A stretch of 64,000 nucleotides of DNA, from positions 92,737 to 156,736 of the forward strand of contig JAJCXN010000012.1 of the NCBI GenBank assembly GCA_029263415.1, read 5' to 3'. This DNA comes from Acidobacteriota bacterium. Its GTDB lineage: Bacteria > Acidobacteriota > Thermoanaerobaculia > Multivoradales > Multivoraceae. A model generated the notes under the pieces. It saw nothing but the letters and a program-made list of their open reading frames with translations, did no database searches and was not told the DNA's origin. Below, piece after piece: positions 4,981 to 57,746 of this stretch. The position numbers and the translations under genes were made by a program. The first letter of the stretch is position 1. Each line of letters opens with the position of its first letter.

Positions 4981-7900
4981 TTGGAAACCGGCTGCGCCTT
5001 GATCGCCTTTCTTGTCGTTATTGCCCTGGTTTGGCTGGTCGTGCATCTAGTCAGCTCTGGCTCCGCGCGTCGGTCGGCTCAAGACCTACGGTTGCAGAAC
5101 CTGGAGATCGAAGTTGCGCAGCTGAGGCAGGCGATGGCTCAGATGCAGGATCCGGCCGGGACAGCGGAGCCCGGGACAGCGGAGCCCGGGACAGCGGCGG
5201 CCAGGAACACGGCACTCGGAACGACTGCGTCCGTGACATCGGATCGGCTCGAACCCGGTGTGCGCACTGAGAGTGCCTCTGAGGATCTGGCTGCGGGCGA
5301 CAGCAGTTCGATGGCTGCAACCGGCGCTTCTGAGGATGCCGCTTTGACTCTTCCGGCAATCCCAGAAATTGGTCCGAGCTTGCCGGCTGAAACTGCCGTG
5401 ACAGCACGCTCCATTTCCTCCTCTGCCGACTCTGGCCTTGGGAAGTCGGCAACGACAAGCGAGGACTCGCAGGTCGAAGACGATGTCCCACGAGCGTCCG
5501 TATCCTTCGATGGGCCGTTTGACGAGTCCACTGACGGCGGCGGCCCTGGGCCTGAACCCGGCGCCGAACCGCCACGGTCGGCTCCGAGTATCGATTGGGA
5601 ACAGTGGGTGGGCGTGCGAGGTCTGGCGGTGCTGGCGGGGATCGTCTTGGCCGTGGCGGGCATCTACTTTGTTCGCTTCTCCATTGAGAGAAACCTGATT
5701 CCCCCAGCCGTTCGCGTCGCTCTGCTGCTGTTGGCTGGTGTGGCCTCGGTCCTGTTTGGTGAGCGCTTCCGCAAGCGCGGTCACATCTTCCCTGCAAACG
5801 CGCTGCAGGGGGCGGGCATCGTCATGTCGTACGCAGCGGTGTGGGCCGCTCGCAACCTCTATGATCTCGTCGGTAGCGGCGTGGCGTTCCTGTTATTGGC
5901 GTTGATCACCGCAGCTGGCGGCGCCCTGGCGATCAAGCACCAGTCTTTGGTGATCGCTCTACTCGGCCTACTTGGAGGCTTCGCAACACCACTGCTCGTT
6001 TCCAGTGGCAGCGACAATGCCATTGGACTCTTTGGATATCTGCTGTTGCTGAACGCCGGAGTGGCGCTGGTTGGGCGCAAGGGGCATTGGCCAATCCTAA
6101 GTGCTCTGAGCTTGGTCGCCACGGTGCTCTACCAGGCCGCGTGGATCCTTCAAGCAGCCGAAGGCAGGGTCGTGCTCGGCCTGTCGATCTTGGCAGTGTT
6201 CTCTCTCTTCTTCCTGTGGAGTTCTGGGCGAGGGGCGCGGGTCAGGTCGGACGAGGACGAGGCCGAGGAATCCTTGCTCGGGCAGCTCGGTATGATCGTT
6301 GGCGCTCTGTTCAGCCCGTTCGCCTTCGCTGTCTACCTTGCGAGTCAAGCGGATACTGGTGATCAGCTATTGCCATTTGGTGGCCTACTGCTGCTGCTCA
6401 ACGCGGCAGCGGCTTGGATGGCGCGGCGACAGCAGCTGCCAGAGCTGGCGTCTGGTGCGGTCGCGGCCACCTTGGGCGTGCTCGCGGTGTGGCCCTTCTC
6501 ACAGGACTTCTCTCATCGCAGCATGATTGAGTGCTTGATCGGTTTGCTGGTGCTGGTTGCGACGCATCAGCTGGCGAGCCACTTTCTTTCTACGGCAGAG
6601 TCTCCTGCAGAAGCCCGGACCGGTCTCGTAGCGTTGCGATGGCGAGCACCCGAACTCGCGGCTGCTGCCGCCAGCGGGCTGGCGATCCCGATTCTTCACG
6701 CAGTTGATTGGTGGGAGAGTGGCCCTAGCCTCTGGTTCACAGTCGGTCTGGCAGCAGTAACAGCTGCACTGCTTTACCAGTCCTCTCGGTTCGATGAGAC
6801 CTCGTCGGCCCAAGAGCCGGAGACACGCAGTGTTTCCCTGGCCTGGATACCCGCCGGCCTCGCCTCGTTGGCGTTAGGGCTGCACTTGTTGCTCACTCTT
6901 GTTATCCGTTCCAACGGCGAGGGTGGAGGCGTCTTTGCTGCTCCGGGCCCGTTGGTCGCGGCCCTGCTGGCAGGTGTTGGCTTCCAGTTCTATGCGCTCA
7001 GCCGCAGCCGCAGCCGCAGCCGCAGCCGCAACCGCAACCGCAACCGCAGCCTGCAAGTGGACGGCGGAACCGGTGTTGGCTCACGAGTTGAGTGGGCCTT
7101 GGCCCTCTATCCGATGCTGGCACTCGGTTCCCTAGCGATAGCGGGCCGTGGTGGAAGCGTCAGCACGCCGTTGATCCTGGTCAGCACAACAGCGCTTGTG
7201 ATGGGGTTGTTCATGCTGCTAACAGCCACTCGGTTGCTCAGCGGCAAGCTCGTCGTCCTCAGTCTCCTGGGCGTCTCCGTCGTGCATTTGGCAATTGCAG
7301 AATCGTGGGTCGGCTCGCCTAGGTGGGCTCTTGCGTTCACGGCGATCGCAATTCTCCTCTTCGTCGTTTGGCCGAGTCTCTTTCCGAGAAGTCTCGCGCG
7401 CTTTGCGACGCGCGACGCCGACGAAGCACACGACATCGCCGCAGATGGTCGATGGCCACTGAGCGCGACTAGAGCCGCAGCGCTGGCACCGGTGCTGATG
7501 GCACCCAGTTTTCACACGTTCTTTGTCGAAGCGTTTGGTGACACCTTCCCGGCGCTGAGCATGTTGCTGCTCGGTGCCATCTCCTTAGGTGGCCTGCGCT
7601 TAGCCGGTCCCAGAATGAGCAGTCTTACTCGAACTTCGACCCTGGCCTGGTTTGGAGCGGTGTCGTTGGGGTTCGTCGCCATAGCGGTGCCGATTCAGTT
7701 GGAGCGAGAGTGGATCACCATCGGATGGGCGCTGCTCGCTCTCGGCGTTGCTGCTCTGTGGCGCCGTGTCGATCACGCGGGCCTCAAGTTCTTTGCACTT
7801 GGCTTAGGTCTCGCGGTCACTGCTCGACTGCTGCTCAATCCAGAGATTTTTAACTACCACCAACCTCGGGCGCCCTGGGGCATTCCGGTTCTGGGTTGGC

Positions 7901-18367: not shown

Positions 18368-19984
18368 ATGACGACTCAATCAACCCTTCACCGGAACGTG
18401 TTCCAACACCCTTTCCAACGGATCGGGGAGCAGATTCATCCGGAGGACCACCAGTCGCAAAGCCCCTCGGCCAGAGGTCGGATGTGGACGATTGTCTTCG
18501 CGACCTTTGTCCTGCTCGGTGGTGCTGCTTCGGCTGTGTTGCTCGTTCCCAATATTCAAGTCGGCGGCAACGATTTTCTGATCTCGTTCATGGGTAATTC
18601 CGGAGAAACACTAGCTGCCGACGGCATTCTGGCCAGAGACCCAGAGAGCGCCTATAGCGCGACTAGTCAACGGGTATTGGTGGTGTGGGCTGGTGTGGAC
18701 GATGCCACCGAGGGTCAGGAAATATGGGGTCAGATTCTCGACAGCACAACCGGTGGATCGATTGGCAGCGACTTCCTCATTAGCGACTCAGGCGATGCCT
18801 CGAGAACCGCGAACGATCCGGCGGTTGCGTGGGACAGCGAACGTAACCGATTTTTGGTCGTTTGGTCCTCGGACGCGACCGTAGAGGGCGAGTTCGAGGT
18901 GCGCGGACAACTGGTCAGTGTGGATGGTGATGAAGAGGGAATCCAAGACTTCCTCATCAGCTCAATGGGCCCGGTGGGTGATAGTGACTACGACGCACGA
19001 CAGCCGCGGGTCGCCTTCAATACAACGCAAGACGAGTACCTGGTGATTTGGAGTGGTGACCACGACACAGGCGATCTCGTCGACGACGAATTCGAGATCT
19101 GGGCACAGCCAGTCGACGGAGCATTCCCTGTTGTCTTTTTCTTTGATCCCACCCAAGTGACTTCGTACGGACCAGCGGGCGATCCCACCTGGGACACCCA
19201 TCACCCTGATTTGGTCTACAACCCAGATCTCGACGAGTATGTCGTGGTGTTCGAGGCTGAGTACTGTTGCCCAGACAGCGACATCGAAATCTTCGGTCGC
19301 CGCCTTCGCGGCAGTGATCAGCTGTTGCTGGGTGCGCGGGAACAGCTCAGCCACATGTCCAAGATCAACGCAGGTTTCGAGAACGTCGGGCGCGGATTGC
19401 GTCCCTCGATCACCTACAACCCGGTCGACCAGGAGTACTTCGTGGTTTGGCACGGAACAGGCTGGTCTAACTTTGTAGGGGAGAAGGAAGTGTGGGGTGG
19501 TCGCCGCACCGCATCGGACCTCGCACCGATTCCGTTCTCCAACTCTCAACAGCTAACTCAAGCTGGTCCCGAGGGAGCTGATTTCCATAGTCGCGATGCG
19601 GATGTGACCTTTGATCATGCTGCCCGCAAGTATGCGGTGGTGTATCGCTCAGACCACATCAACGACAATGAGTACGAGATCTCTGTGTTGCTGGTGAACA
19701 CCGATGGCGATCCTCAATCAGGGGCTCCTGAGGCCGGTCTCAGGATTTCGGATCTGGGAGGATGGGACGCCACAAGCCCAGACAACACCTTCGATGGCCA
19801 GGAACCAACGATTGTCGCAACGGGAACAGAGCACATGGTGGTTTGGGCCGGAGACGACGATGAACCCTGGCTGGGCAACGACGATCTCGAGATCTTTGGT
19901 CAGCGGATTCGCATCCCTGGGACCTTGTTCACGGATGGGTTCGAATCTGGCGGCACGGGCGCGTGGAGTTCACAGAGCCCGTAG
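18368..19984 (+). CDS. Membrane-anchored or secreted beta-propeller protein with C-terminal DGFESG tail
   Basis: 538 residues. A cytoplasmic-looking N-terminus of ~40 residues precedes one hydrophobic helix (MWTIVFATFVLLGGAASAVL), giving a signal anchor or a long signal peptide. The exported part is made of repeated ~55-residue blades with the pattern W-D-x-x-x-x-x-F/Y-L-V-V-W-S-x-D and E-I-x-x-Q, such as WDSERNRFLVVWSSD and YNPVDQEYFVVWHGTG. This is typical of a propeller repeat of unknown ligand. The last 19 residues (LFTDGFESGGTGAWSSQSP) match the tail of the unrelated protein at 53682-57020. No enzymatic residues stand out. It appears monocistronic; the stop lies 158 bases from the converging ABC permease gene. 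Confidence 0.82.
   Translation: MTTQSTLHRNVFQHPFQRIGEQIHPEDHQSQSPSARGRMWTIVFATFVLLGGAASAVLLVPNIQVGGNDFLISFMGNSGETLAADGILARDPESAYSATSQRVLVVWAGVDDATEGQEIWGQILDSTTGGSIGSDFLISDSGDASRTANDPAVAWDSERNRFLVVWSSDATVEGEFEVRGQLVSVDGDEEGIQDFLISSMGPVGDSDYDARQPRVAFNTTQDEYLVIWSGDHDTGDLVDDEFEIWAQPVDGAFPVVFFFDPTQVTSYGPAGDPTWDTHHPDLVYNPDLDEYVVVFEAEYCCPDSDIEIFGRRLRGSDQLLLGAREQLSHMSKINAGFENVGRGLRPSITYNPVDQEYFVVWHGTGWSNFVGEKEVWGGRRTASDLAPIPFSNSQQLTQAGPEGADFHSRDADVTFDHAARKYAVVYRSDHINDNEYEISVLLVNTDGDPQSGAPEAGLRISDLGGWDATSPDNTFDGQEPTIVATGTEHMVVWAGDDDEPWLGNDDLEIFGQRIRIPGTLFTDGFESGGTGAWSSQSP
19925..19981 (+). other. C-terminal DGFESG tail (copy 1)
   Basis: 19 codons ending the propeller protein: L-F-T-D-G-F-E-S-G-G-T-G-A-W-S-S-Q-S-P. 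The same length and pattern recurs at 53685-53741. It is not a PEP-CTERM, LPXTG or Por-type signal. Confidence 0.85.
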
Positions 19985-53681: not shown

Positions 53682-56600
53682 CTAGGGCGTCCCGTTCGAC
53701 CATTGTGTTGTGTCCCCGGACTCGAATCCGTCCGAGAAGATCTCAGGCCCCACACACGTTTGGATAGCGAGGTCGTCGATATACCAGCCTTCGCGGCCCT
53801 CAAACGCATCTGTCGCGAGGCGGAAGCGGAACTGCACTGTGTCACCGGCGTATGCCGAAAGGTCGACAATCGACTCAAGCCAATCCTGGGGCTCGCCGCA
53901 CCAAGCATTCTCTCCGGAAATTGGGCTGGCGGGGTTGATCTCGACCGGACCATCATAGGGGTCGCTCAAGAGTTCTGCATCGAGACGAGTCCAGGTGCTG
54001 CCTCCATTGTTGGACACGTCTAAGACCGCACCGTCCCAGCAACCAGCAGTGCCACTGGACTCGATCTCCTGGTAGTTCCAGAAGCTCAGGGCAGGCTGAG
54101 TTCCAGAGGTAGGAACGGACATGCTTGGTGATACTAGGTACTGGTCACTCTCAGTTTCAACGTCCTCCGCCCAGAAAGCCGTGCTGCCACTGTGGGTGCG
54201 AGCCGAGGACTCCTGCCAGGTGTTCTGCGTTCCAGAACTAGTCCAGGCAGCGTTGCTTCCTTCGAGGTCGTCGGCGCTGTGGATCTCCGTGCTGAATCCG
54301 ATTGGACATTCACCCGGTGCCAGATCTGTGGTGAACGAGAATGTGGCCGAAGGGGCGCTCTCTCCGCAAGTGTTGTTTGCCTTGACCCGCCAGTAGTAGG
54401 TGGTAAGACTCTCGAGATTGGTTAGGTACGCTTCGCCCGCCACGGTCGCTGAATCGACGATCATGGAGAAGCCAGCGTCGGTAGCAATCTCGATTGTGTA
54501 GGAGGCGGCACCGGTGCCGGTCCACGAGAAGGAGGTGGCCTCGAAAGGTTCGGGATCGCTGCCGTTCGAAGGACTGGTCAGAAGTGGAACCGAGGGAATT
54601 GCGTCAAACAGCGTTAGCGGTATGAAGGTGCTCGCCGTGGTACTTGTGTCGGTGGAGTCGGTCGCAGTCACTTCGATGCTGTACTCGCCAGTTGAGACAC
54701 TGCCGAGGCTTGTGATGCTCAACGACGTGTCGACGTCGGACCCAGTGTTCAAGGAAGTGTCATCCAAGACACACGAGGCTCCTGCGGGGCAACCAGTGAC
54801 GCTGAGGTCGGTGCCGCCGGTTGGGTATCCCATCAGCGTAATTGTGGATGCGACGTTGCCAACCGTTGAACAGACCTCGAAGGCACTCGGGTCGGTTTCA
54901 ATGGCAACGCACCCTGGCACCTTAAAGGCGCCAACGCGTGTCGTCCAAGGGGCGGAGCCGGTGGCTTGCAAGTATTCTGTGGTGAACCAGAACGTACAGT
55001 CGTCGGCTGGATCGAGTTCCATCGAGGAATAATCACCCCAGCGAGCTGCCGAGTGGGTTTGAGAGCCCTCGCCAGCCTCCAGAACTGCCTCGGCAGACAT
55101 TGTGCCCAGGGGGGCATCTTTTTCATGCACAGCGTAGTGGATGGATGGGAAGGTTGAACCTGAGGTGAGCGAGTAGCCCATGGCGATGTTGCCGCTGCCA
55201 TCCATTGCGATCGACGGCATGAAGCGGTGTTCAGTATCTGGTGCGTAGGTGCCCTGCTGATGAATGCTCCATCCTCCGCGACTGCTGTCGCGCCGCAGTT
55301 CGAACCAACGCGGTGCCGCTTGGTCGCCCACGGCTAGCACGTCAACAGTCCAGGCTCCCACGAGCGCCTCATGGTCCGCGAACTTGCGGTAGACAAACCG
55401 TTGCATAGGCCACCACGACGCGCTGTCGATCCCCTGCGCGGTGCTCGGCTGCGGTAGACAGTTCGATTGGAAGAACCCGCAGACGGTCCAATTGAAGGGG
55501 GTTAGTTCGCCGGGGGCCGAGAAACTAGTGCTGAGCGAGAAGGTGCTACTAGCGGGAAGGTCCCAGTCGACATCGAACTCGTACAATTCCAAACTGTCTG
55601 CTGGTGGAGAACCGAAGTAAGGCTCGCCTCCGTCGAGGAATGTGTAGAGCAGCCCGGGATCACTACTCTCCGGGTAGTTGCGGCCGTCAACGTCTGCGGG
55701 CATGAACAAGTTGGGAAAGTTCTGAAACACCTGCGCCGGCCGCGCGGGATCGGCCGCGCTGATCATGCTCTGGCGATCGATCGCGTAGACGTCGTAGCCG
55801 CCCTGAAACCCAGAGTTGGTGGTCAGAAAGTAGGCGTTGTTGTCGGCCGCGGGCCACATGCCGACCTTGTAGTAGTCCGGGAAGCGCTGCGTATTAACCT
55901 GAAACAGGCGGTAAGTACCCTGAGGATCAGTGGTAGTTGAGACCGCGAAGCAAACCACGTTGCCTGATGTGAACTGTGTCAAAACCCACTTGTCGGCGTG
56001 CTGGTCATAGAGAAATATGGCATCTCCGTTGTTGTCGCTTTGACAAAGACCCCCGAAACCAGCCCACAGCGTGTTGGTGTTCAGCGGTCCCTGGAGGAGG
56101 GTGCCGGCCTTGTTGTAGATGCTGAACGCAGAATTGACGACCTGTAGGTAGTGGTCCGGTCCTACGGCTCCTTCGGTGTCGGGAGGCAGAACTCCACTCA
56201 CGTTGCCGATGCCCTCGAACTCCACGCTGAGAGCTGGGGCAGTGGAGCCACGCACTTGAGCGCGTTGAAGCGCCACCAAGGGATCATCGATCTTCTGGGT
56301 CGTGGTACCGAAGCGGTTGCCGTTCTCGTCCTCTAGATCGCCGTGTCGTGGCGGGTTCGCTTCGTCTGCGTTGTCGATGACGTCACGGATGTCGGTGCTC
56401 TCAAGTGAGGGGAACTCACGCAAAGCTCGGCTGACCCCGAGATCGGTCATGGTGATCTCAAGCGGGTTCCGACGGAAGCTTTCAGTGGACTCTTCGTCGA
56501 GGCCGGGCTTCGACCTGAGCTGGACCGCCTGCACTCCGGTACCGCTACCGGCTGCATAGTACGCCTTGGTCTGTTTCCCCTGGCGGGCGCCGAGTGCGGC

Positions 56601-57020
56601 GCTCAAGGCGGCGATGCTGGCCGGGGAATGGCCGCGTGGTTGCACCAAGACATGTGGATACTGGCGAACATCGTCGATCGACACCTCGAGCAAGACCTGC
56701 GGGTTGCGTGCGAAAACGGTACGCAGGCCTGGAGTTTTTCCAGGAAGACGGGTCTTACTGCCGACCTCCACCGTAAACCGGCCGTCTTCGATTACAACGT
56801 CATACCGTTCGGACGCCAAGGTCTGTTTGGCCTTGCTGTCGAGCACGGTGATGCGAATTGCCGCTTTGCCGTTGCGCGGCGTTTCATTGTCAGACACCGC
56901 AAAGCCGCGGTAGGTAATGGTGTCGGGGAAGAGGTTAGGGGCGGAGTTGGGTGCTGCTGCTAGAGCAGGACTCGCCAGCAAAAGTGCCGCAAGCCCAAAG
57001 AAGCGAAGAGGTGTATTCAT
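53682..57020 (-). CDS. Large secreted multidomain protein with FN3, MAM-like and DGFESG tail
   Basis: 1112 residues from the ATG at 57020 with GGAG 9 bases upstream. Signal peptide ends near ALAAAP. An N-terminal ~110-residue beta domain is followed by a long propeller-like region (GAVGPDHYLQVVNSAFSIYN then NAYFLTTNSGFQGGYDVYAI). About residue 730-810 is an Ig-like module (VTGCPAGASCVLDDTSLN). An FN3 module follows (SWTGTGAASYTIEIATDAGF). Then comes a MAM/immune-inhibitor-A-like domain (WTSSGTQNTWQESSARTHSG and GREGWYIDDLAIQTC). The last 19 residues are IFSDGFESGDTTQWSNGTP. No protease motif is present. Adhesion or extracellular matrix function is inferred. Confidence 0.85.
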   Translation of the reverse strand: MNTPLRFFGLAALLLASPALAAAPNSAPNLFPDTITYRGFAVSDNETPRNGKAAIRITVLDSKAKQTLASERYDVVIEDGRFTVEVGSKTRLPGKTPGLRTVFARNPQVLLEVSIDDVRQYPHVLVQPRGHSPASIAALSAALGARQGKQTKAYYAAGSGTGVQAVQLRSKPGLDEESTESFRRNPLEITMTDLGVSRALREFPSLESTDIRDVIDNADEANPPRHGDLEDENGNRFGTTTQKIDDPLVALQRAQVRGSTAPALSVEFEGIGNVSGVLPPDTEGAVGPDHYLQVVNSAFSIYNKAGTLLQGPLNTNTLWAGFGGLCQSDNNGDAIFLYDQHADKWVLTQFTSGNVVCFAVSTTTDPQGTYRLFQVNTQRFPDYYKVGMWPAADNNAYFLTTNSGFQGGYDVYAIDRQSMISAADPARPAQVFQNFPNLFMPADVDGRNYPESSDPGLLYTFLDGGEPYFGSPPADSLELYEFDVDWDLPASSTFSLSTSFSAPGELTPFNWTVCGFFQSNCLPQPSTAQGIDSASWWPMQRFVYRKFADHEALVGAWTVDVLAVGDQAAPRWFELRRDSSRGGWSIHQQGTYAPDTEHRFMPSIAMDGSGNIAMGYSLTSGSTFPSIHYAVHEKDAPLGTMSAEAVLEAGEGSQTHSAARWGDYSSMELDPADDCTFWFTTEYLQATGSAPWTTRVGAFKVPGCVAIETDPSAFEVCSTVGNVASTITLMGYPTGGTDLSVTGCPAGASCVLDDTSLNTGSDVDTSLSITSLGSVSTGEYSIEVTATDSTDTSTTASTFIPLTLFDAIPSVPLLTSPSNGSDPEPFEATSFSWTGTGAASYTIEIATDAGFSMIVDSATVAGEAYLTNLESLTTYYWRVKANNTCGESAPSATFSFTTDLAPGECPIGFSTEIHSADDLEGSNAAWTSSGTQNTWQESSARTHSGSTAFWAEDVETESDQYLVSPSMSVPTSGTQPALSFWNYQEIESSGTAGCWDGAVLDVSNNGGSTWTRLDAELLSDPYDGPVEINPASPISGENAWCGEPQDWLESIVDLSAYAGDTVQFRFRLATDAFEGREGWYIDDLAIQTCVGPEIFSDGFESGDTTQWSNGTP
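53685..53741 (-). other. C-terminal DGFESG tail (copy 2)
   Basis: 19 codons: I-F-S-D-G-F-E-S-G-D-T-T-Q-W-S-N-G-T-P. Matches copy 1 in length and in 11 of 19 positions, with F-x-D-G-F-E-S-G-x-T-x-x-W-S as the core, although the two host proteins are otherwise unrelated. Confidence 0.85.
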
Positions 57021-57746
57021 TGTTGAAGACTCCGGTCTAGGTGAGGTTTTGTTCAACGAACAGCATCGCTACGTTGCGACGTGAAAGATTTGCTGGCGAC
57101 AGTATCGCACCGCCTCTCTGGGGCGTTTCACTTGGGAGCAGTGCGGGTCGTGTCGCAACGAAGACCTTGTGATCTTCCGCGCTAGGCTTTCTCTTAACGC
57201 CACTAGCGATGAGGTAGGCAATCGCCATGAGCGCGTCAGCTGAACGAAACCCGTTGGCCTCGGGGCAGCGACGCGAATTGTGTTGTTGACACCTTCGAGG
57301 AGTTCGAAGATGAGTCGCTCATCGAAGTAGGCAGCGAGGCTCCTTCTCGGTTTCGCTCGGGTGTGTGATGTCTCTGGCAATCGGTCGGTCAGCATGAAGG
57401 TGCCATCGGGTCATCGCCTCGTGGATATGACTGGCCACACCTGTGCTGTGTCCCGCAACAGTTACCCTGGCAGGTTTACAAGCCGGTTAGTTGAAGCCGT
57501 CTCTTGATTGAAGTGTTGCCAATCCATCCGAACCGTCAGCCTCCCTCAGGCACCGCGAATGGGGACGTTGGGTGACATACAGACGGTTAGGTGGCACGGA
57601 TCATCTCGGGGCCTTAGGAGTCGCTCGATCTTCGCCATGGCTGCGTAGTAACTCTGGCGAACTGCCGAGTCACGGGAGTGTTGGATGGGTGTGCTACGTT
57701 GTGGAGGCCGCAACTCCTTAGGCCGAACCGAAAGAGGGTGAACGCT
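57021..57746. other. Long divergent intergenic region
   Basis: 726 bases between divergent secreted-protein genes. Minus-strand frames at 57069-57395 and 57614-58135 lack ribosome sites and family resemblance and are treated as chance. No repeat or clear promoter was found by eye. Confidence 0.5.

Follow-up and report, generated by a model that had tools for sequence, protein, structure and literature searches.

We describe a short C-terminal peptide tag carried by many exported-looking proteins of an Acidobacteriota bacterium. It was found in a 64,000-nucleotide stretch of assembly GCA_029263415.1 (contig JAJCXN010000012.1, positions 92,737 to 156,736; hereafter the window), where two proteins, P0001 and P0002, end in tails of the form I/L-F-x-D-G-F-E-S-G-x-T-x-x-W. 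The tail is proposed to be a surface-sorting tag, probably processed by a PorU-like peptidase of family C25, and we give this reading a probability of about 0.5. That the tail is a sorting tag of some kind is quite probable; the naming of the PorU-like peptidase as its enzyme is tentative. The proposal is drawn from three points: the tag has the features by which C-terminal sorting signals are recognized, the type IX secretion signal is the nearest among known signals that lack a membrane helix, and the sortase family of that system associates with the tag here.

A previous, sequence-only reading of the window had reported two tails of identical length on proteins of different fold, and both tails were confirmed in sequence (Table 1). 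Each spans 19 residues, counted from [LI]F to the C-terminus. The window has two matches to the pattern DGFExG where 0.01 would be expected. The two hosts appear to be unrelated, P0001 being predicted to form a beta-propeller and P0002 ending in a choice-of-anchor J / MAM-like domain (NF038128, E 8.5e-9, 35.8 bits with a cut-off of 30; PF20773, E 1.6e-10). An AlphaFold model of P0001 built from 46 sequences gave a confident propeller, with most ten-residue blocks above 80 in predicted local distance difference test (pLDDT) score, and predicted the tag to be disordered in this one modelled host. Foldseek returned generic propeller matches only. Both hosts had also been called secreted. P0002 has an ordinary-looking signal peptide; P0001 is likely exported, judging from its sequence, but less clearly so, its sole hydrophobic stretch sitting behind an unusual N-terminal extension and being missed by the stricter signal-peptide rule given below.

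The tag is abundant in this genome and almost always terminal. A degenerate DNA pattern for FxDGFExG gave 92 matches in 6.89 Mb, and the reversed pattern none. All 92 were read with their flanks, and in 87 the frame stops 12-37 residues on, counting from F, most often after 18 (38 cases) or 14 residues (18 cases) and within 13-18 residues in 78 of the 87. Position had been singled out beforehand as a test of the tag, and matches read in related genomes gave the same picture, 28 of 30 being terminal. Five matches run on, for 130 (L109), 206 (L127), 90 (L066), at least 229 (L067) and at least 222 residues (L124). At two of these internal copies, in L127 (G000:C55:48423) and L067 (G000:C37:203366), the further sequence looks as if a domain had been fused behind the tag; by eye it is a DUF1566-like part in the former and contains DxDGDG in the latter.

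Conservation was analysed in 82 tagged ORFs (open reading frames), these being the 84 matches in ORFs of at least 60 residues with a start codon, minus 2 that run on; of the other eight matches, 5 are terminal but sit in frames that are short or lack a start, and 3 run on. Conservation of F, D, G, F, E and G in the core is built in by the search pattern. Tryptophan at +12, which the pattern had not required, is invariant in all 82, and is present in 4 of the 5 short-frame terminal matches. Position -1 is I in 45 tails, L in 30, V in 6 and F in 1 (I, L or V in 81), positions +6, +9 and +11 are mostly S, T and A, and P stands at +17 in 35 of the 45 tails that reach so far. The strict DNA pattern skips DDFE and GFD variants, and per-genome counts are likely too low. 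At the DNA level all 82 tails are distinct, serine is encoded by both AGY and TCN codons, and wobble identity is 0.469, against a column expectation of 0.475. Clustering the tail-trimmed hosts by BLAST (E 1e-5, single linkage) gave 57 families (largest n=10). Distinct DNA, free synonymous change and varied hosts together point to selection on the tag peptide and make a copied DNA element unlikely.

The tails end 0-24 residues past the tryptophan, mostly 0-5, and as had been remarked for the first two, none of the 82 contains a hydrophobic run or ends in a helix plus basic residues (tail list and column table). Few sorting tags without a membrane helix are known to us. No Pfam or NCBIfam model matched the 48 tails long enough to be scanned out of a set (A2) of 73, drawn from the 77 tails of at most 20 residues. 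Whole hosts matched 52 NCBIfam families, and the 25 of these that were listed include no tag model; current annotation therefore likely misses the tag. A PDB search with the tail profile gave chance-level matches only (E 2.2). No description of the tag was found by letter strings or by topic in the literature covered, which leaves out most subscription papers.

The hosts are diverse and look exported. Among the 25 Pfam families listed of 54, FG-GAP repeats (6), subtilases (5) and beta-helices (5) are the most frequent, followed by DUF1501 (2), glucose/sorbosone dehydrogenases (2), lactonases (2), several metallopeptidases and others. The 25 listed NCBIfam families include choice-of-anchor Q (4), J (2) and B (1). 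Export was assessed with a home-made hydrophobicity rule, not SignalP, in ORFs of at least 150 residues with a closed 5' end. An N-terminal hydrophobic stretch with none internal was present in 61 of 76 tagged ORFs and 85 of 246 neighbouring ORFs (Fisher p 1.6e-12), as predicted from the first two hosts; under this crude cut, an internal stretch was seen in 7 of the 76. The contrast was weaker with a stricter signal-peptide rule, also home-made (52/82 against 106/277). One host, the ORF ending at C55:131988, appears Tat-like by eye. As neither position nor export came out against it, the sorting or anchoring role suggested earlier is supported, and the tag would function as such a signal.

The tag is widespread in the order to which this genome belongs. 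Its pattern was matched in 49 of 72 genomes and 25 of 28 genera, with up to 142 matches in G327 (positions not all checked). In one genus, g2 (21 genomes), 20 genomes have no match, and the single match of the other (G005, L045) is not a tail; G334, G342 and G353, each the sole sample of its genus, also lack a match. A search with the A2 profile, scoring at most 150 candidates per genome, gave one weak match each (E 0.13-0.81) in 4 of the 21 g2 genomes. Among 297 genomes drawn from the phylum, those outside the order have 0-2 matches each; none of 31 matches read there at 30 loci is terminal with the tryptophan, and several open a jelly-roll-like domain. The suggestion that the tag is lineage-specific thus stands for the long form with W, as far as sampled. 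It fails for a short form, ..IF-x-DGF[ED], in which the stop follows GFE or GFD directly or a few residues on, without the W segment. This form shares its residues with the long tag, stands in the corresponding position of choice-of-anchor B homologues, and belongs to no named family. Where a short-form record gives an organism, it is Marinicella (2), Wenzhouxiangellaceae (3), a Gammaproteobacteria bacterium or a Pseudomonadota bacterium. DDFE variants also escape the pattern; one ends P0167, from a record named Candidatus Sulfomarinibacteraceae, which may or may not belong to the order. In G035, which has 2 pattern matches, adjacent look-alike proteins (L248:4493-6022 and 6204-7694) both carry a tail, the second slightly different (FSDGFEGGAVPGLWSGKTP).

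Two host families were examined for what stands at the tag's place in homologues, and by the look of their ends some homologues of the hosts bear other sorting tails there. Among 46 homologues of P0001, patterns recognized the long tag in 13, the short tag in 1, YLPxxx[KR] in 6 and a hydrophobic tail in 2. Of those without such a pattern, P0143 and P0152 carry the type IX tail domain PF18962, and by eye P0127 and P0128 have YLP-like ends and P0148 and P0157 altered long tags. Eight homologues, 6 by pattern and 2 by eye, end in [IV][YF]LP...[KR] or similar (P0123, P0127, P0128, P0137, P0150, P0162, P0165 and P0166; one record is named Anaerolineae), perhaps another undescribed C-terminal tag. 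For a tagged choice-of-anchor B protein, 7825 homologues were found; the best 120, query included, comprise 119 homologues with 34 long tags, 36 short forms, 8 looser ones, 4 hydrophobic tails and 37 with no end of these kinds. Within the order, the best such loci of 13 genomes (L167-L179) have the tag or a near variant at the end in 11. The protein of G026 has about 40 more residues behind the tag, and that of G028 (2 tag matches; L208 / L176) has a Cys-rich end, CSECGPCDEGEGDCDRDAECEGDLICAPDVG..., in place of it.

Comparison with described systems would place the tag among C-terminal sorting signals. Haft and Varghese recognized such signals by unrelated hosts sharing one C-terminal segment, by signal peptides and by homologues with other tails (PMC3237569), and the tag shows all of these features. 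It resembles GlyGly-CTERM, the rhombosortase signal, in joining many unrelated secreted proteins per genome that have only a short C-terminal segment in common, with a signal peptide, no other membrane segment and homologues with other tails. GlyGly-CTERM comprises a motif, a transmembrane helix and a basic end and occurs up to 13 times per genome (PMC3237569), whereas our tag lacks the helix and basic end, has 92 matches here and is paired more loosely with an enzyme. The tripartite build shared by GlyGly-CTERM, PEP-CTERM and LPXTG tags is thus absent. MYXO-CTERM likewise marks dozens of proteins per genome in one lineage, but combines an invariant Cys with a helix and an Arg-rich end, none of which the tag has, and myxosortase is an intramembrane CPBP protease (PMC11980579) whereas the candidate here is a C25 peptidase. 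The type IX C-terminal domain shares with the tag the lack of a membrane helix and an associated C25-family peptidase of PorU architecture (PMC4804311, PMC8545088). That signal is a folded Ig-like beta-sandwich; the tag is short, predicted to be disordered, and found in a lineage labelled Acidobacteriota.

The candidate enzyme in this genome is a 917-residue C25 peptidase (G000:C39:74805-77555) of PorU architecture, with the PorU fold and conserved catalytic His and Cys and an adjoining gene for an FN3-like lipoprotein. Its match to the PorU sortase model NF033707 (E 9.9e-64) scores 215.5 bits, below the curated cut-off of 420. Among the sampled genomes of the order, all 20 outside g2 have a peptidase C25 and none of the 21 of g2 does. 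The C25 proteins of 20 loci split with support 1.00 into a PorU-like group (group A; 9 proteins) and 11 others that are diverse. The profile built from group A (A5), which also detects other C25 proteins, was run over the 72 genomes with at most 13 candidates scored in each, so that a missing match is not proof of absence. The line for group membership, 600 bits, was set after the scores were seen; the weakest accepted match scored 688 (a contig-edge piece) and the best rejected one 178. By this line group A is present in 21 of 72 genomes. The median number of tag matches is 82 in these, 2 in the 51 others and 8 in the 30 of those outside g2. The difference from these 30 holds for tag number (p 2e-6), density per Mb (p 1.5e-5), genera (13 against 15, p 5e-4) and labels shuffled within families (p 0.0044). 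The PorU-like group and the tag are strongly associated, with exceptions both ways.

In the proposed pathway, the hosts would cross the inner membrane by Sec, and in one case by Tat, and then the outer membrane. Recognition would proceed through the extended tail, after which a PorU-like C25 peptidase, whose gene lies in another part of the genome, is predicted to cut the tail and replace it by a surface anchor. That this enzyme is the 917-residue peptidase is less certain than the export and recognition steps. A bolder version would make this Acidobacteriota order a second lineage of PorU-type surface sorting, outside Bacteroidota. There, a short disordered tag copying the opening strand of a jelly roll would be recognized by pairing as a beta-strand with a PorU-like transpeptidase, which would have a lipoprotein partner of its own, and dozens to more than 100 different proteins would thereby be anchored at the cell surface; we consider this unlikely as a whole.

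Several observations weigh against the proposal. The 20/20 against 0/21 split of C25 is a single genus-level difference, and a PilQ-like secretin shows the same split by score; this coincidence is a warning about profiles that rest on one event. Larger genomes also tend to have more tags (rho 0.47), but the difference in density per Mb persists. In G353, whose PorU-like peptidase scores 950 bits, neither the pattern nor the profile detected a tag, and a different signal may be in use there. Conversely, tags occur without group A in G332 (75), G350 (54), G331 (49) and G003 (46), and G328 and G344-G346 have 13-23 tags with zero match to the group A profile. The group A copy of G324 has an in-frame stop, and those of G323 and G333 are contig-edge pieces. 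Assembly fragmentation and the scoring of 13 candidates are unlikely to explain all of these exceptions. No tagged gene is among the ORFs of the 9 PorU-like peptidase loci. A type IX translocon was not found, SprA being matched in 0 of 41 genomes in a search where no positive control gave a match. Finally, 24 of the 46 P0001 homologues end without a tail of the kinds in the patterns used.

Other partner families were tried one at a time. Sortase PF04203 was rejected, being absent from the present genome despite its 92 tag matches and present in 9 of 41 genomes. Type II secretion was also rejected: its secretin first seemed lost with the tag in g2, but, as read by eye at the loci of this genome and at one locus of g2, the stronger secretin match belongs to a pilus secretin within a PilM-N-O-P-Q gene run, and a type II-like operon is also present in the g2 genome G004 (L211) and does not track the tag. 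Type II-like secretin matches occur in all 41 genomes by score, which beyond the loci read by eye is all that tells the two secretins apart. Genus g2 seems to lack PilQ (own copy L205:10102-16149, G000:C46), which by score is present in 20 other sampled genomes of the order, once as a contig-edge piece. Around the tag genes of few-tag genomes, three regions (L246-L248) contained no convincing enzyme. No C25-like gene directly flanks them at both loci of G028 and on one contig of G035, both genomes lacking the PorU-like group, and by eye an M14-like carboxypeptidase lies a few ORFs away in L246.

The alternative that survives best is that the tail is never cut and stays in place as a handle for binding or an address for export, recognized by a receptor at the surface or by an outer-membrane exporter, perhaps a type II system. 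The absence of the helix and basic end of cut tags would fit this, as would the many genomes with tags and no PorU-like peptidase, including the four with zero profile match, and a type II-like operon in this genome (identified by eye together with a weak match to a GspD profile). The type II version loses ground to the operon in tagless g2 and the ubiquity of the secretin, and we know of no short linear C-terminal tag shared by type II substrates. Overall we judge an uncut handle possible but less likely than a processed tag. Considerably less likely again, the tail could be a donated beta-strand that mimics the first strand of a jelly roll and completes a fold of that kind in a receptor at the surface. 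No receptor short of its first strand turned up, though no search was aimed at one, and the spacing to the tryptophan, four residues in the tag, is three or otherwise in jelly-roll domains. That the tails are functionless, either decayed starts of a lost domain, as the sequence-only reading had allowed, or copied DNA at gene ends, is strongly disfavoured: the likeness to a domain start and the five matches continuing for more than 40 residues speak for it, but it leaves 87 separate early stops unexplained and conflicts with the invariant tryptophan and the DNA-level variation across 57 families.

If surface sorting by a PorU-like peptidase is correct, the tag would provide a secretome handle for an Acidobacteriota lineage whose named records are mostly metagenome-assembled, and the last 18 residues would suffice to place dozens of proteins per genome at the cell surface. 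A PorU-like link outside Bacteroidota would also show that sorting by C25 peptidases can occur apart from the type IX system.

Table 1. Tags and host features in the window, and neighbours of PorU-like peptidases at other loci
Feature	Position	Strand	Basis or remark
C-terminal tag copy 1, LFTDGFESGGTGAWSSQSP	19925..19981	+	sequence; pLDDT <50 over residues 521-538
Stop codon after copy 1	19982-19984	+	
C-terminal tag copy 2, IFSDGFESGDTTQWSNGTP	53685..53741	-	sequence
Stop codon after copy 2	53682-53684	-	
Host ORF P0001, 538 aa, beta-propeller (precomputed PF22847)	18368..19984	+	
P0001 N-terminal hydrophobic stretch, residues 39-60, likely export signal or anchor	18482..18547	+	sequence, inference
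P0001 folded beta-propeller part, residues 61-514	18548..19909	+	AlphaFold model
Host ORF P0002, 1112 aa	53682..57020	-	frame open to TTG at 57056 (alternative start)
P0002 signal peptide-like N-terminus, residues 1-22	56955..57020	-	sequence
P0002 choice-of-anchor J / MAM-like domain, residues 922-1086	53763..54257	-	lies shortly before tag copy 2
FN3-like neighbour	L254:11609-12121		
FN3-like neighbour	L259:9766-10371		
FN3-like neighbour	L260:6265-6864		
FN3-like neighbour	L261:9448-10233		
FN3-like neighbour	L271:7201-7656		
Membrane protein neighbour	L258:3750-5072		
Membrane protein neighbour	L260:824-2227		
Membrane protein neighbour	L261:5593-6978		
Membrane protein neighbour	L271:7659-8969		

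Two kinds of gene recur near the PorU-like peptidase. A conserved FN3-like protein, mostly with a lipobox, stands beside it or one ORF away in 5 of the 9 loci; four of these proteins were scanned, and no Pfam family exceeded its cut-off. None of the peptidase's relatives is named Marinicella or Wenzhouxiangellaceae among the 120 listed, few of which bear names. A membrane protein family lies near the peptidase in 4 of the 9 loci, is PMT_2-like in two of the four, and possibly links the peptidase to a glycan anchor.
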